This document shows, one piece after another, positions 14,054 to 20,739 of a stretch of DNA of 33,330 nt. The stretch comes from an uncultured Nocardioidaceae bacterium. GTDB taxonomy: Bacteria; Actinomycetota; Actinomycetes; Propionibacteriales; Nocardioidaceae. Every line of letters starts with the position of its first letter. Position 1 is the stretch's first letter. The translations under genes and the position numbers were made by a program. The notes beneath the pieces were generated by a model. That model had not been told where the DNA came from, searched no databases, and saw only the letters and a list, made by a program, of their open reading frames with translations. The stretch lies in assembly GCA_902805845.1 (NCBI GenBank), contig CADCUI010000048.1, forward strand, positions 1 through 33,330. Direction: 5' to 3'.

Positions 14054-15274
14054 ATGACCCGCGCCAGCAGCCGCTCCGGTGGCGGGGCCGCCACCCGAGC
14101 CGTGGTAGTGCGGCAGCTGCAGCGGGCGGTGGACGACCTGACCAAGGCGACGTTGTCGCGCATGGACTCGGAGATGTCGTGGTTCGTCGAGCTGTCAGCA
14201 GAGCACCGGGCGTCGATCGGCATGGTGCTGCAGGCGGGATTCAACAGCTTCATCACCTGGTACCGCGAGCCGAACAAGCCCGCTCCGCCGCTCACCGTCG
14301 AGGTGTTCGGCAGTGCGCCCCGTTCGTTCGCGGGGGTGATCACGCTGCAGCAGACCGTCGCGATGGTCCGCCTCGGCATCGAGGTCGCCGAGACCGGCGT
14401 CACCGACGCCGTGGCCCCCGAGCACGCCGCGGAGGTGCGGGAGGCCATCCTGCGCTACGGCCGTGAGCTCGCCTTCGCCACCGCGGACATCTATGCCCAC
14501 GCGGCGGAGATCCGGGGAGCGTGGGACGCCCGCCTCGAGGCCCTCGTCGTCGACTCGATCATGCGCGGGGACGCCGACGAGACGGTGCGGACCCGCGCCA
14601 GTGCCCTGGGCTGGCTGGAGACCGGGCACGTGACGGTCGTCGTGGGGCGCGCGCCGAACCCGCAGGACGGCACAGCCCGGGAAGGCATCGTGGACGAGGT
14701 GCGGTCGGCGGCCCGGCACGCCGGCCTCACGACGCTGGGTGCGGTGCAGGGCGACCGCCTGGTCATCGTCACCGGAGGTGTGTCGGACCCCGACAAGGTC
14801 GGGGCACTGCTCGGCAGCCACTTCGGGGAGGGTCCGGTGGTCGTCGGGCCCGTCGTACCGGATCTCCTGCAGGCGCACCACTCCGCGGCGGAGGCGGTCG
14901 CCGGGCTCCGCGCCGCTGCCGGGTGGCCGGCCGGGCCGGGGCTGCTGACCAGCGACGACCTGCTGGCCGAGCGGTCCCTCGACGGCGATGTCCTTGCCCG
15001 TGACCAGCTCATCGCCCAGGTGTACGCGCCCTTGTGCAGCACAGGGACCGGCATGCTCGACACGCTCACCGCGTTCTTCGACAGCGGCGGCTCGGTGGAG
15101 GGGGCGGCCCGAGCCCTGTTCGTGCACCCGAACACCGTGCGCTACCGACTCAAACGCGTCGCCGACGTGACGGGGCTGAGCCCGGCGAACGCGCAGCACG
15201 CGTTCACCCTGCGGATAGCACTGGTGCTCGGACGGCTGGCGGACGACCGCCGAGGCACACCCTCGTCTTTGTAG
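14054..15274 (+). CDS. fasR: PucR/CdaR-type transcriptional regulator of fatty acid synthesis (FasR-like)
   Basis: 406 residues, ATG at 14054. The C-terminal ~60 residues are a PucR-type helix-turn-helix (HTH_30): LTAFFDSGGSVEGAARALF, then VHPNTVRYRLKRVADVTGLS. The middle holds a GGDEF-like/CdaR regulatory region, and the N-terminal ~170 residues are an all-helical sensor domain. The position between aceE and fabD matches SCO2386 (FasR) of Streptomyces coelicolor, an activator of the fab operon, and Rv2242 of Mycobacterium. The symbol rests on that synteny and domain layout. It probably senses a lipid-related ligand, which is inference. Two competing hairpins precede it. The fabD start lies 79 nt downstream. 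Confidence 0.85.
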   Translation: MTRASSRSGGGAATRAVVVRQLQRAVDDLTKATLSRMDSEMSWFVELSAEHRASIGMVLQAGFNSFITWYREPNKPAPPLTVEVFGSAPRSFAGVITLQQTVAMVRLGIEVAETGVTDAVAPEHAAEVREAILRYGRELAFATADIYAHAAEIRGAWDARLEALVVDSIMRGDADETVRTRASALGWLETGHVTVVVGRAPNPQDGTAREGIVDEVRSAARHAGLTTLGAVQGDRLVIVTGGVSDPDKVGALLGSHFGEGPVVVGPVVPDLLQAHHSAAEAVAGLRAAAGWPAGPGLLTSDDLLAERSLDGDVLARDQLIAQVYAPLCSTGTGMLDTLTAFFDSGGSVEGAARALFVHPNTVRYRLKRVADVTGLSPANAQHAFTLRIALVLGRLADDRRGTPSSL

Positions 15275-15353: not shown

Positions 15354-16541
15354 ATGCTCGTCATCGCTGCTCCCGGCCAGGGTGCCCAGACGCCCGGATT
15401 CCTCACGCCGTGGCTCGAGGATCCGACGTACGCCGAGCGGATGCGCTGGCTGTCGGCGGTGGCCGATCTCGACCTTGTCGACTACGGCACCAACGCCGAC
15501 GCCGAGACCATCCGCGACACCGCCGTGGCGCAACCGCTGCTCGTCGCGTCCGCGCTGGTCACCGCGCTGCAGCTGTTCCCGCACCCGGCCGACGCGTTCA
15601 CCAAGATCGGCGCCCTCGCCGGCCACAGCGTCGGCGAGCTGGCCGCGGCCGCGGGTGCCCGTGTGATCACCGCCGAGCAGGCCATGGTCCTCGTCCGCGA
15701 GCGTGGCCGGGCCATGGCCGAGGCGGCCGCTCGCACCCCCACCAGCATGACCGCGGTGCTGGGTGGTGACCGCGACGAGGTGCTGGCCAAGCTCGAGCAG
15801 CACGGTCTCACCGCCGCCAACGACAACGGCCCCGGCCAGATCGTCGCCGCAGGCACGGTCGAGCAGCTCGCCGCGCTCACCGCCGACCCGCCGGGCCGAG
15901 CGCGCCTGACGCCGCTGCCGGTCGCCGGTGCGTTCCACACCCACCACATGGCGCCCGCCGTCGAGGTCATCGCCGGTCTCGGCCGCGCCGTGACCACCCA
16001 CGACGCCCGGACGCCGGTGATCTCCAACCGGGACGGGCACGTCATCCATGACGGCCGCCAGCTCCTCGAGCGCATCGTGAACCAGGTCGCCGCGCCGGTC
16101 CGCTGGGACCTGTGCATGGACACCATGCTCGACCTCGGGGTGACCGGCATCCTCGAGATGCCGCCGGCCGGCACTCTCACCGGGATCGCCAAGCGGACGA
16201 TGAAGGGCGTCGAGACCTTTGCGCTGCGGACGCCGGACCAGATCGACGACGCCCGGGCATTCGTGGAGCGTCACGGCAGCCCCTCGCCCGTCGACGAGAC
16301 GCCGACCTGGCGGATGCTCGTCTCCCCCGCCAAGGGCACGTTCCGGCAGGTGCCCGACATCGCCGAGGGTGGACGGCTCCCGGTGCAGGCGACGATCGGC
16401 GCTGTCGCGGGGCTGCGCGACGAGACACTCATCCGGGCTCCCCACGGCGGCACGGTCGTGGAGTGGCTGGTCAGCGACGGGGACCCCGTCTCGCCCGGAC
16501 AGCCGCTGATCCGCCTCCACCCCGAGGGGGTGGGCGGGTGA
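15354..16541 (+). CDS. fabD: Malonyl-CoA:ACP transacylase with C-terminal BCCP-like domain lacking the biotin lysine
   Basis: 395 residues, ATG at 15354 with GGAGG 1-5 nt upstream (close). Residues 1-308 are a complete acyltransferase: APGQGAQ (6-12), the nucleophile motif GHSVGE (Ser92), NDNGPGQIVAAG, and AFHTHHM (His195). FabD moves malonyl from CoA to ACP. Typical FabD proteins end near residue 310. Here residues ~320-391 add VSPAKGTFRQVP, then LIRAPHGGTVVEWLVSDGDP and VSPGQPLIRL, which align with the two halves of a biotinyl/lipoyl carrier (BCCP) domain. The region where BCCP has EAMKM reads IGAVAGLRDET, so it cannot be biotinylated. The stop overlaps the fabH start (GTGA). Confidence 0.95.
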   Translation: MLVIAAPGQGAQTPGFLTPWLEDPTYAERMRWLSAVADLDLVDYGTNADAETIRDTAVAQPLLVASALVTALQLFPHPADAFTKIGALAGHSVGELAAAAGARVITAEQAMVLVRERGRAMAEAAARTPTSMTAVLGGDRDEVLAKLEQHGLTAANDNGPGQIVAAGTVEQLAALTADPPGRARLTPLPVAGAFHTHHMAPAVEVIAGLGRAVTTHDARTPVISNRDGHVIHDGRQLLERIVNQVAAPVRWDLCMDTMLDLGVTGILEMPPAGTLTGIAKRTMKGVETFALRTPDQIDDARAFVERHGSPSPVDETPTWRMLVSPAKGTFRQVPDIAEGGRLPVQATIGAVAGLRDETLIRAPHGGTVVEWLVSDGDPVSPGQPLIRLHPEGVGG

Positions 16542-17542
16542 GCGCCACGATCGCGTCCACCTCCGGCGCCCCCCACACCGCGATCCTCGGTCTCGGCGCC
16601 TACCGCCCCAGCCGGGTGGTGGGGAACGCCGAGCTGGTCGACGCCATCGACAGCAGCGACGAGTGGATCCAGCAGCGGTCGGGCATCAAGCAGCGACGGT
16701 TCGCCACCGAGGACGAGACCGTGCAGATGATGTCCGTGGCCGCCTCCCGGGCCGCGCTGGAGCAGGCCGGCCTTGCCGCCGCCCAGGTGGACGCGGTCAT
16801 CGTCGCCACGGTCACGCACCTGATGCAGACGCCGGCGGTCGCCCCCGCAGTGGCGCACGAGCTCGGCACCGAGCACGCCGCGGCCTTCGACGTCAGTGCC
16901 GCCTGCGCGGGCTTCTGCCACGGTGTCGCGCTGGCCTCCGACATGGTGCGCGGCGGCAGCGCCAAGAACGTGCTGGTCGTCGGCGTGGAACGCCTGTCCG
17001 ACATCCTCGACCTGTCCGACCGAGGCACCGCCTTCATCTTCGCCGACGGGGCGGGAGCCGTCGTGGTCGGCCCGGCCGACGAGCCGGGCATCGGACCCGT
17101 CGTGTGGGGCTCGGACGGCGAGCAGCTCGACATGATCCGCCAACGTGAGGACTGGCGCGAGGCGCTGGCCGCGGACGACCCGCAGATGCCCTTCCTCATG
17201 ATGGAGGGCAAGGCGGTCTTCCGGTGGGCCGCCTTCGAGATGGCCAAGGTCGCGCAGGCCGCGCTGGACCGCGCCGGGGTCGGGGTCGACGACCTCGACG
17301 CGTTTGTGCCCCACCAGGCCAACATGCGCATCACCGACGCGATGGCCCGCGCCCTGCGACTGCCCGAGCGCGTCGCCATCGCCCGTGACATCGCCGAGCA
17401 GGGCAACACCTCGGCGGCCTCGATACCGCTGGCCCTGGAGCGGCTCGTGGCGGACGGCGAGGTCAAGAGCGGCGACACCGCCCTGCTGGTCGGCTTCGGC
17501 GCCGGCCTCGCCTATGCCGCCCAGGTGGTGAAGGTGCCATGA
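16538..17542 (+). CDS. fabH: Beta-ketoacyl-ACP synthase III
   Basis: 334 residues, GTG at 16538 overlapping the fabD stop by four bases, so translation is coupled. The catalytic triad is visible: Cys123 in FDVSAACAGFCHG, His259 in VPHQANMRI and Asn290 in EQGNTSAASIP. Length is normal. FabH condenses a starter acyl-CoA (acetyl-CoA or branched-chain acyl-CoA in actinobacteria) with malonyl-ACP to begin fatty acid synthesis. The gene order fabD-fabH-acpP-fabF is that of Streptomyces; Mycobacterium lacks fabH at this position. Starter preference cannot be read from the sequence by eye. Confidence 0.96.
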   Translation: MSATIASTSGAPHTAILGLGAYRPSRVVGNAELVDAIDSSDEWIQQRSGIKQRRFATEDETVQMMSVAASRAALEQAGLAAAQVDAVIVATVTHLMQTPAVAPAVAHELGTEHAAAFDVSAACAGFCHGVALASDMVRGGSAKNVLVVGVERLSDILDLSDRGTAFIFADGAGAVVVGPADEPGIGPVVWGSDGEQLDMIRQREDWREALAADDPQMPFLMMEGKAVFRWAAFEMAKVAQAALDRAGVGVDDLDAFVPHQANMRITDAMARALRLPERVAIARDIAEQGNTSAASIPLALERLVADGEVKSGDTALLVGFGAGLAYAAQVVKVP

Positions 17543-17633: not shown

Positions 17634-17882
17634 ATGGCAGACACCTCCGAGATCCAGGCCGAGCTCGCGACGATCGTCGAGGAGGTCGCCGGCGTACCCG
17701 CCTCGACCGTGCAGCCCGACAAGGAGTTCATCTCCGACCTCGACGTCGACTCGCTGTCGATGGTCGAGATCGTCGTCGCCGCCGAGGAGAAGTTCGGCGT
17801 GCGCATCCCCGACGACGAGGTCAAGAACCTCCGCACCGTGGGCGACGCCGTGGCCTACATCCAGAGCGCCCAGGCCGCCTGA
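17634..17882 (+). CDS. acpP: Acyl carrier protein
   Basis: 82 residues, ATG with AAGGAG 7 nt upstream, a strong ribosome-binding site as expected for an abundant protein. The phosphopantetheine attachment site is Ser40 in FISDLDVDSLSMVEIVVAAE. The protein is acidic and helical, without the C-terminal extension of mycobacterial AcpM. It carries growing acyl chains between FabD, FabH, FabF and the reductases. It lies 91 nt after fabH, in a gap with no hairpin, so read-through is likely; an extra internal promoter is possible but not visible. Confidence 0.97.
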   Translation: MADTSEIQAELATIVEEVAGVPASTVQPDKEFISDLDVDSLSMVEIVVAAEEKFGVRIPDDEVKNLRTVGDAVAYIQSAQAA

Positions 17883-17954: not shown

Positions 17955-19190
17955 ATGTCCACCACGCGCGTCCTGGTGACCGGTATCGGCGCCACCTCCC
18001 CACTCGGGGGAGACGCTCCGAGCACCTGGTCGGCGCTCCTCGCCGGCCAGTCGGGGGTCGACACGCTCAAGCACGAGTGGGCCGACGATCTCCCCTCCCA
18101 GATCGGGGCGGAGGTGGCGGTCGAGCCGACCGACGTCCTGGACCGGGTCAAGGCACGGCGCCTGGACCGGTCGAGCCAGCTGGCGCTGGTCGCGGCGCTC
18201 GAGGCCTGGACCGACGCAGGGCTCGACGACGCCGAGCTCGACCCCGAGCGGGTCGCCGTCGCGATGGCCTCGGGCATCGGCGGGGTCCAGACGCTGCTGG
18301 CCAACTACGACCAGCTGATCCAGAAGGGCCCTCGACGGGTGTCGCCGCTGGCGATCCCGATGCTGATGCCGAACGGCCCTGCCGCGAGCATCGGCCTCGC
18401 CGTGAGCGCCAAGGCCGGTGTCCACACGCCGGTGTCGGCGTGCGCCTCCGGCAACGAGGCCATCGCGCTCGGCATCGACCTGATCCGGTGGGGACGGGCC
18501 GATGTCGTCGCGGTCGGCGGCACCGAGGCAGCCGTGCACGCGCTGCCGATGGCCGCGTTCGGCCAGATGCGGGCGCTCTCCCAGCGCAACGCCGAGCCGC
18601 AGCGGGCATCGCGACCGTGGGACCGGGGCCGTGACGGCTTCGTGCTCGGCGAGGGGGCCGCGGTCCTCGTGCTCGAGTCCGAGGCGCACGCGACCGCCCG
18701 CAATGCGCGGGTGTACGCCGAGGCGGCCGGAGCGGGCGTCACCGCCGACTCCCACGACATCGCCCAGCCCGACCCGGCCGGCCTGGGGGCCACGAGGGCG
18801 ATGACGATCGCGCTGCGCGAGGCGGGGCTCGACCCTGCCGACCTGGTGCACATCAACGCCCATGCCACCTCCACGCCCCAGGGCGACGTGGCCGAGGCGT
18901 TGGCGGTCCGCACCGCCCTCGGCGACGCGGTCGACCGCGTCGTGGTGACCTCCACGAAGTCGATGACCGGCCATCTCCTCGGCGCCGCGGGCGCCCTGGA
19001 GTCGCTGGCGACGGTGCTGGCACTGCACCACCGGGTGGTTCCGCCGACGATCAACCTCGAGGACCCCGAGGATGTCGGCCTCGACATCGCCACCGACCAG
19101 CGCGAGCTCGCGGCGGGTCAGATCGCCGCCATGAACAACTCGTTCGGGTTCGGCGGGCACAACGTCGCGGTGGCCTTCACCAGCGTCTGA
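17955..19190 (+). CDS. fabF: Beta-ketoacyl-ACP synthase II
   Basis: 411 residues, ATG at 17955 following GAGGAGTGATCTGAGC. KAS II/KasA-type active site: Cys163 in VSACASGNEAI, His303 in INAHATSTPQGD and His340 in KSMTGHLLGAAG; the Phe gate region reads NNSFGFGGHN. It elongates acyl-ACP by condensation with malonyl-ACP in the cytoplasm. Length and order match fabF of Streptomyces and kasA of Mycobacterium. There is only one copy here (no kasB-like second gene), consistent with absence of a mycolate-type elongation system at this locus. Confidence 0.96.
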   Translation: MSTTRVLVTGIGATSPLGGDAPSTWSALLAGQSGVDTLKHEWADDLPSQIGAEVAVEPTDVLDRVKARRLDRSSQLALVAALEAWTDAGLDDAELDPERVAVAMASGIGGVQTLLANYDQLIQKGPRRVSPLAIPMLMPNGPAASIGLAVSAKAGVHTPVSACASGNEAIALGIDLIRWGRADVVAVGGTEAAVHALPMAAFGQMRALSQRNAEPQRASRPWDRGRDGFVLGEGAAVLVLESEAHATARNARVYAEAAGAGVTADSHDIAQPDPAGLGATRAMTIALREAGLDPADLVHINAHATSTPQGDVAEALAVRTALGDAVDRVVVTSTKSMTGHLLGAAGALESLATVLALHHRVVPPTINLEDPEDVGLDIATDQRELAAGQIAAMNNSFGFGGHNVAVAFTSV

Positions 19191-19248: not shown

Positions 19249-20739
19249 ATGACCACCGCCCCCGCAGCCCCGACGACGGCCACCTCGGACGCCACTGTCC
19301 CCGCCGGACGCGCCCGGCCCCCGAAGCTCCCCCGGGATCAGGACCCGAGGCACCCCGGCCGACGGCTCGCGGCCTACCTCGACCCAGGCTCGATCGAGCT
19401 GCTGAGCCCGGACGACGACAGCGGCATGCTCGCCGCCCTGGGAACGGTGGAGGGCGCCCCGGTCGTCGCCTTCTGCTCCGACGCCACCGTGATGGGCGGC
19501 GCGATGGGGGAGGCCGGCTGCCGGGTCGTGGTCGCGGCGTACGAGCGCGCCCTCGCCGACGGCGTGCCGATCGTGGGGCTGTGGCACTCCGGCGGCGCAC
19601 GGCTGGCCGAGGGGGTGCGCTCGCTGCACGCCGTCGGCGAGATCTTCCACGCCATGACCACCGCGTCAGGTCGCATCCCGCAGATCTCGGTGGTGCTCGG
19701 CCCTGCGGCCGGCGGCGCGGCGTACGGCCCCGCCCTCACCGACATCGTGATCCTCGGACCGGAGGGGCGGATCTTCGTGACCGGCCCCGACGTGGTCCGC
19801 TCGGTCACCGGCGAGGACGTCGACATGCTCCGGCTGGGAGGCCCCGAGCCGCACGGCCGGCGCTCCGGCGTGGTGCATCTGCTCACCGACTCGGAGGAGG
19901 AGGCGCTGTCCCGAGGCCGCGCGCTGGCCGCGCTCCTCGGTGCGCAGGGCCGGCTGGCCACCGACGACGTCGTGGCTCGCGACCTCGCGACGCTGCTGCC
20001 GGAGTCGGCCAAGCGGGCCTACGACGTGCACCCGCTCGTCGAGGGCGTGCTCGACGAGGGCACCGTCGTCGAGCTGCACGCCCGGTGGGCTCCCAACCTC
20101 GTGACCGCCCTCGGGCGGCTCGGTGGCCGCACGGTCGGCGTCGTCGCCAACAACCCCCTCCGCCTCGGCGGCTGCCTGGACTCCGCCTCGGCGGAGAAGG
20201 CGGCCCGCTTCGTCCGGATGTGCGACGCGCTCGGCGTGCCGCTGGTGGTGCTGGTCGACGTCCCCGGGTACCTGCCCGGAGTCGGCCAGGAGTGGGACGG
20301 CGTCGTACGCCGCGGCGCCAAGCTGCTGCACGCGTTCTCGGAGTGCACGGTGCCGCGGGTCAGCCTGGTCACCCGCAAGGCGTACGGCGGTGCCTACATC
20401 GCGATGAACGCCCGCTCCCTCGGAGCCACCCGGGTGCTCGCCTGGCCCGGCGCCGAGGTGGCGGTCATGGGAGCGGTGGCTGCGGTGCGGATCCTCCACC
20501 GTCGCCGGCTCGCCGAGGTCGCGCCGGAGCAGCGTGCCGAGGTCGAGGCCCAGCTCGCGGCCGAGCACGAGCGGATGACCGGCGGAGTGACCGCCGCGCT
20601 CGGCATCGGCGTGGTCGACGAGATCGTGGCACCGGCTCAGACCCGGCAGGCGCTGGCCGAGGCACTGGCCGAGGCGCTCGACGCCGGGAGGGCCGACGGC
20701 CGCGAGCCGCGGGGTCGGCACGGCAACATCCCCCTCTGA
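19249..20739 (+). CDS. accD: Acyl-CoA carboxylase carboxyltransferase (beta) subunit, AccD6/PccB-like
   Basis: 496 residues, ATG at 19249. Carboxyltransferase domain with GLWHSGGARLAEGVRSLH, the oxyanion-forming VLGPAAGGAAYGPAL, LVDVPGYLPGVGQEWDGVVR and TRKAYGGAYIAMNARSLGA, ending in the family motif HGNIPL. It transfers carboxyl from carboxybiotin to acetyl-CoA and/or propionyl-CoA, making (methyl)malonyl-CoA for FabD. The last position of a fab operon matches accD6 of Mycobacterium. The alpha (biotin carboxylase/carrier) subunit is not in the window. The N-terminal ~35 residues are Ala/Thr/Pro-rich and probably disordered. An exact substrate choice cannot be made here. Confidence 0.93.
   Translation: MTTAPAAPTTATSDATVPAGRARPPKLPRDQDPRHPGRRLAAYLDPGSIELLSPDDDSGMLAALGTVEGAPVVAFCSDATVMGGAMGEAGCRVVVAAYERALADGVPIVGLWHSGGARLAEGVRSLHAVGEIFHAMTTASGRIPQISVVLGPAAGGAAYGPALTDIVILGPEGRIFVTGPDVVRSVTGEDVDMLRLGGPEPHGRRSGVVHLLTDSEEEALSRGRALAALLGAQGRLATDDVVARDLATLLPESAKRAYDVHPLVEGVLDEGTVVELHARWAPNLVTALGRLGGRTVGVVANNPLRLGGCLDSASAEKAARFVRMCDALGVPLVVLVDVPGYLPGVGQEWDGVVRRGAKLLHAFSECTVPRVSLVTRKAYGGAYIAMNARSLGATRVLAWPGAEVAVMGAVAAVRILHRRRLAEVAPEQRAEVEAQLAAEHERMTGGVTAALGIGVVDEIVAPAQTRQALAEALAEALDAGRADGREPRGRHGNIPL

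Follow-up and report, generated by a model that had tools for sequence, protein, structure and literature searches.

The window analyzed here, a stretch of 33,330 nucleotides from an uncultured Nocardioidaceae bacterium (contig CADCUI010000048.1), contains a fatty acid synthesis operon on its plus strand. The fabD gene (positions 15354-16541) is an open reading frame of 395 codons plus stop. Upstream of it lies a gene for a PucR/CdaR-type regulator (14054-15274, plus strand; PF13556 and PF17853 over cut-off), and downstream follow, in the same orientation, fabH (16538-17542; PF08545 and PF08541 over cut-off), acpP for the acyl carrier protein ACP (17634-17882), fabF (17955-19190) and accD (19249-20739) for an AccD6-type carboxyltransferase. 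The names of the acpP and fabF reading frames are our assumption, based on a DSL motif and the operon position for acpP and on operon position and sequence features for fabF. The accD product matched PF01039 with 408.8 bits, and its best solved match was AccD6 (E 1e-190), the next other protein following at 5e-121. An earlier note on this DNA had located accD three genes downstream of fabD; it is in fact the fourth gene after fabD, with fabH, acpP and fabF intervening. An AlkZ-like gene is found 40 bases past accD. No epsilon-type gene was seen beside accD, and a loose epsilon pattern matched nothing in the window. A pyruvate dehydrogenase-type gene on the plus strand of the window is presumably aceE.

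The catalytic part of FabD comprises residues 1-307 (15354-16274, plus strand). In phmmer searches against solved malonyl transferases (303-322 aa) the best match had an E-value of 1e-95, and the acyl-transferase profile PF00698 passed its cut-off (63.5 versus 32.7 bits). The cut-off of the NCBIfam FabD equivalog TIGR00128 was missed (162 versus 260.9 bits), and the malonate decarboxylase epsilon profile TIGR03131 scored slightly higher (168.7 bits) but below its own cut-off of 297.9. FabD is a sensible name because of the solved relatives and the operon. Malonyl-CoA transacylase activity is presumed from the sequence, S92 and H195 being the presumed catalytic pair.

Residues 311-395 (16284-16541, plus strand) form a tail, which bears out the earlier description of about 85 residues past the normal FabD end, as the solved homologues have only 303-322 aa. 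An AlphaFold2 model of the whole protein (60 sequences) had a mean pLDDT of 91.4 and a pTM of 0.76. Residues 312-317 (16287-16304) showed pLDDT values below 50 and are predicted to be a flexible linker; between residues 321 and 390, every block of ten reached 87-93. When modelled alone (54 sequences), the tail had a pLDDT of 88.6. A Foldseek search returned the biotinyl domain of E. coli acetyl-CoA carboxylase (1bdo) as top match (E 2e-5). VIA-align gave a Z-score of 12.0 and an rmsd of 2.4 across 74 residues for 1bdo and a Z-score of 11.4 for Arabidopsis BCCP1 (9a87), and the tail shares 30% identity with these biotinyl domains. The models predict with high confidence that residues 318-391 (16305-16526, plus strand) adopt a flattened β-barrel of the biotinyl/lipoyl type, the carrier fold that had been proposed from the sequence by eye. 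Profile searches agreed: biotinyl/lipoyl-type matches were significant but stayed just below the curated Pfam cut-offs for the FabD of the window (PF13533, 28.7 bits, cut-off 29.8, E 1.1e-6; PF00364, 20.7 bits, cut-off 22.1). In two congener genomes the tail passed the PF00364 cut-off with 28.6 and 28.2 bits. The NCBIfam model NF005457 "acetyl-CoA carboxylase" matched the tail with an E-value of 4.9e-8 and 33 bits versus a cut-off of 87. The epsilon profile PF13822 was not among the matches of the tail at E ≤ 10, in a search in which HMMER filters drop weak matches.

The site corresponding to the biotinylated lysine was located from the aligned C-terminal ends (81 versus 156) by counting residues backwards, on the assumption that this half contains no gap. 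FabD residue 355 (codon 16416-16418, plus strand) is thereby paired with residue 122 of E. coli BCCP, taken to be its biotinylated lysine. Across 168 distinct domain-bearing sequences, position 355 is occupied by R in 156, Q in 4, S in 3, D in 2, G and T in one each and a gap in one; K does not occur. The claim that the biotin hairpin lacks its lysine thus stands, with the correction that the position carries a conserved arginine, R355. Judged from the sequence, the domain cannot be biotinylated at site 355, and the idea of an active carrier in some relatives was rejected since none of the 168 sequences has K at the site and MKM occurs in no tail. E370 is invariant (168/168), and W319, R320 and R387 (166/168 each), W371 (163/168) and H389 (159/168) are nearly so. 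For 33 close pairs, the median dN/dS (Nei-Gojobori) was 0.20 for the tail domain versus 0.11 for the catalytic part. The term "degenerate", used in the earlier note, therefore fits only in the sense of divergence from BCCP: the domain is not decaying but under purifying selection, and a read-through or random tail was rejected by the conservation and the dN/dS values. We regard the tail as a pseudo-BCCP, which is predicted to share the fold of BCCP and other biotinyl domains but differs from them by an arginine in place of the biotinylated lysine, by its own set of near-invariant residues and by its fusion to a transacylase.

The tail recurs in close relatives. When named genome records were scanned, 265 loci matched, and the best 80 of them belonged to Nocardioides, other Nocardioidaceae, Kribbella, Phytoactinopolyspora, a Propionibacteriales MAG and a record titled Streptomyces sp. 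SID13031. The tail was present in 110 of 110 loci that had been selected by their resemblance to full-length FabD. In a class-wide draw, 271 of 296 genomes had a FabD match (E ≤ 1e-40), and among the matches listed at least 97 extend to residue 380 or further; four more tails were found among 44 followed-up genomes (G070, G092, G194, G072). In a draw of 149 genomes of the phylum, which included some members of the same class, the tail profile matched 36 genomes at E ≤ 1e-6, of which the own genome alone gave a strong match (1.9e-40), the next having 2.6e-10. The fusion occurs widely across the class, and a restriction to close relatives was rejected on the basis of this class-wide occurrence. 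The tail is missing from the FabD of many other lineages.

Presence of the domain was compared with that of accD. Among 58 relatives (accD match threshold E ≤ 1e-140), 44 have a FabD with the domain and 42 of these an accD, the exceptions being G030, whose fabD contig has just 3,280 bases, and G049. None of the eight relatives with a domain-less FabD and none of the remaining six has accD. An automatically drawn survey of 147 genomes of the order (FabD match threshold 1e-60) included 92 with a domain-bearing FabD, of which 88 have accD and four do not (G049, G564, G566, G580). In the 37 genomes with a domain-less FabD, 20 of which were read as sequence and 17 judged by the match end, accD was absent throughout. 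The other 18 genomes had no FabD match at 1e-60, and none of them an AccD6-type accD. In this order, the domain is kept only where an AccD6-type accD is present, with few exceptions. This tracking of accD by the tail domain is new here, and at the sequence level the coevolution with the operonic gene supports the link between the tail and acetyl-CoA carboxylase (ACCase) that the earlier note had proposed.

Domain losses also occurred in genera that hold domain-bearing members, namely g1 (G001), g7 (G010), g27 (G045), g28 (G496, G498, G510), g255 (G513), g257 (G522, G534, G545) and g259 (G560), and accD is missing in every fetched locus of these cases. The genes between the lost domain and the lost accD, fabH, acpP and fabF, mostly remain (no fabH match was found in L183), so that a single deletion does not explain both losses. 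In other lineages accD lies beside a tail-less FabD in 14 loci, two of which (L223, L224) fall among domain-bearing relatives on the FabD tree. Hence the domain is dispensable for AccD6 and can disappear from FabD while accD stays. In one genome, G023, an ordinary FabD is missing; the five matches there fall within open frames 3,217-3,710 residues long, perhaps those of a type I synthase.

The FabD tree was calculated with FastTree from the catalytic part of 166 non-redundant loci, near-identical loci having been collapsed. They comprise 107 loci with domain and accD, 36 with neither, 14 with accD only and nine with the domain only. L186 (G263), which has a run of N in the tail, and loci that lacked accD and had less than 4,500 bases of downstream sequence (67 of them domain-bearing) were left out. 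The loci were chosen knowing the domain state, and 20 added regions were picked after the results of the order survey. A dependent two-character model fitted better than an independent one, with a likelihood ratio of 35.6 (df 4, p 3.5e-7), a p value that is indicative because several branches are weakly supported and the sampling was partly informed by the states. In a loss-only model (likelihood ratio 36.4), the rate of domain loss was 6.33 without accD versus 0.37 with accD. Rooting on L236 gave a much similar result, and an earlier run with 146 loci had given a likelihood ratio of 21.7 (p 2e-4). Whole-operon exchange as cause of the joint loss was disfavoured for G001 (L178) and for L252 and L253 on the Kribbella side, because their FabD nests beside domain-bearing sisters. 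The FabD of G010 (L182) clusters with that of genomes from a different family, possibly due to operon transfer or a tree artefact.

Among the nine loci with the domain but no adjoining accD, seven are missing between 3 and 7 of 18 signature residues, which places them 1.9 to 4.6 standard deviations below what their catalytic divergence would predict (Mann-Whitney test over all nine, p 0.001). An altered R355 is seen in L163, L169, L174, L177 and L255, and R320 is replaced by M in all three loci of genus g255 (L255-L257). For L177, a weaker accD-type match (E 3.3e-160) was obtained elsewhere in its genome, G149. L248 (G049) and L218 (G076) retain the domain fully intact with no accD adjoining it, and signatures are likewise eroded in L219-L222, four loci of a single divergent family that do have accD. 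In G012, which has lost the domain, the fabF stop codon is immediately followed by a relic of the accD C-terminus, 45 codons long (L179:7009-7146). Over its final 39 codons it can be aligned to AccD residues 453-496 with 47.7% identity (E 4e-6 within the locus, 1.5e-4 over all loci). It was the one convincing relic in a search of 45 accD-less loci, in which weaker matches were not credited, and G034, a relative of G012, showed none.

A BC-BCCP subunit, with an intact EAMKM motif, is encoded on another contig (L238:14394-16193), and about 10 kb from it lies the second carboxyltransferase of the genome, with an adjoining gene for an epsilon subunit (L238:4213-4434; PF13822, 58.8 bits). A single-chain carboxylase of 1852 residues is encoded on the minus strand of a further locus (L241:3230-8788) and has homologues in 25 of the 58 relatives.

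Malonyl-CoA supply is the committed step of fatty acid synthesis, and to our knowledge its direct hand-over from ACCase to FabD is an open question. We lean towards the reading that the pseudo-BCCP tail docks FabD onto the acetyl-CoA carboxylase composed of the AccD6-type carboxyltransferase and BC-BCCP. Being carrier-shaped and non-reactive, the domain would dock as a carrier domain would, without turnover; its partner would be the AccD6-type carboxyltransferase of the operon with a BC-BCCP subunit that also serves other carboxylases. Through its flexible linker FabD would stay close to where malonyl-CoA is released, and this proximity might favour malonyl transfer to ACP and/or aid complex assembly. 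The predicted fold, the missing lysine, the conservation and the coevolution with accD are what the analysis shows; binding itself, the surface used by the partner and any effect on kinetics are inferred from them. Docking is the simplest reading because genomes of the order rarely retain the domain without accD, and since the domain tends to disappear or decay upon loss of the operonic carboxylase gene, FabD and the carboxylase may be physically coupled. We also counted in favour of docking the correlated-evolution result, the eroded signatures in seven of the nine loci and the accD relic of G012, and that no epsilon-type gene was seen by accD, whereas the other carboxyltransferase of the genome has one. 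Against it we counted the 14 loci with accD but without the domain, the intact domains without accD in L248 and L218, the eroded accD-bearing loci L219-L222, the recovery of a single relic among 45 accD-less loci, the weak tree branches and the state-informed sampling. A bolder version, which we put forward tentatively and with some doubt, would be an ACCase-FabD metabolon, in which a permanently docked pseudo-carrier places FabD at the carboxyltransferase site and malonyl-CoA is handed directly to ACP; this would be an old actinobacterial arrangement, discarded once another carboxylase took over.

The nearest analogue of the FabD tail is plant BADC. As far as described in the accessible parts of two studies, BADC proteins are BCCP homologues without biotinylation motif in plastid ACCase, either serving as glue for its assembly or competing with BCCP (PMC11926652, PMC7712654). 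The tail is likewise BCCP-like and without the biotinylation motif, and its coevolution with accD would tie it to ACCase. Unlike BADC, which are separate proteins contacting BC and BCCP, it is bacterial, fused to FabD and encoded near an AccD6-type carboxyltransferase. The domain might be a regulatory decoy, after the inhibitory model proposed for BADC: in competition with the genuine BCCP for sites on biotin carboxylase or carboxyltransferase, it would let idle FabD damp malonyl-CoA synthesis. The same fold, the lack of the lysine and the coevolution with accD would suit a decoy too, and a competition model for BADC is stated in the accessible part of PMC7712654, but that of PMC11926652 argues against an inhibitory model. 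Moreover, domain loss follows accD, while BC-BCCP would serve other carboxylases too, although this does not separate docking from competition. We consider a decoy unlikely.

Alternatively, the domain could serve FabD itself or the ACP step, through stability, oligomer formation or ACP docking, and its loss with accD would reflect a general remodelling of fatty acid synthesis. This would accommodate the 14 loci that lost the domain yet kept accD and the two that keep an intact domain without accD. It would also fit the single-chain carboxylase, which accompanies most losses among the relatives (six of the eight with a tail-less FabD). This enzyme may permit domain loss, but does not force it, because 17 of the 42 accD-bearing relatives have one too. 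A role in FabD or the ACP step appears rather improbable given that none of the 147 genomes of the order has accD without the domain, that the intervening fabH, acpP and fabF mostly survive the loss of both flanking pieces, and that the linker is predicted to be flexible. A functionless tail, for which its absence from FabD of many other lineages might speak, is very hard to reconcile with the conservation and the purifying selection (median dN/dS 0.20 over 33 pairs).

If the tail docks FabD onto ACCase, non-biotinylated BCCP homologues, described in plants, would exist in bacteria as a fusion, and a pseudo-carrier that is fused to FabD and tends to go with its carboxyltransferase would offer a natural handle on the hand-over from ACCase to FabD. 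Among the open-access papers listed in literature searches, no title or abstract opening dealt with a FabD fused to a biotin-carrier-like domain. Mycobacterial FabD with AccD6 differs from the present case, as the solved chains 2qc3 and 2qj3 (303 and 322 aa), which we take to be mycobacterial FabD, are too short for a tail. The epsilon subunit of actinobacterial acyl-CoA carboxylases is, according to the accessible part of PMC13118682, a non-catalytic third component tied to the carboxyltransferase that affects assembly and activity. The FabD tail may resemble it as a non-catalytic component tied to a carboxyltransferase, but the epsilon subunit is a separate small protein, and its profile PF13822 was not among the matches of the tail that passed the HMMER filters at E ≤ 10.

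AccD columns that differ between lineages with and without the domain were not used as evidence, as they are confounded by lineage. Within AccD residues 191-204 (19819-19860 of the window), R195, P201, G203 and R204 are conserved alongside a tailed FabD and vary in 14 loci whose FabD is tail-less.
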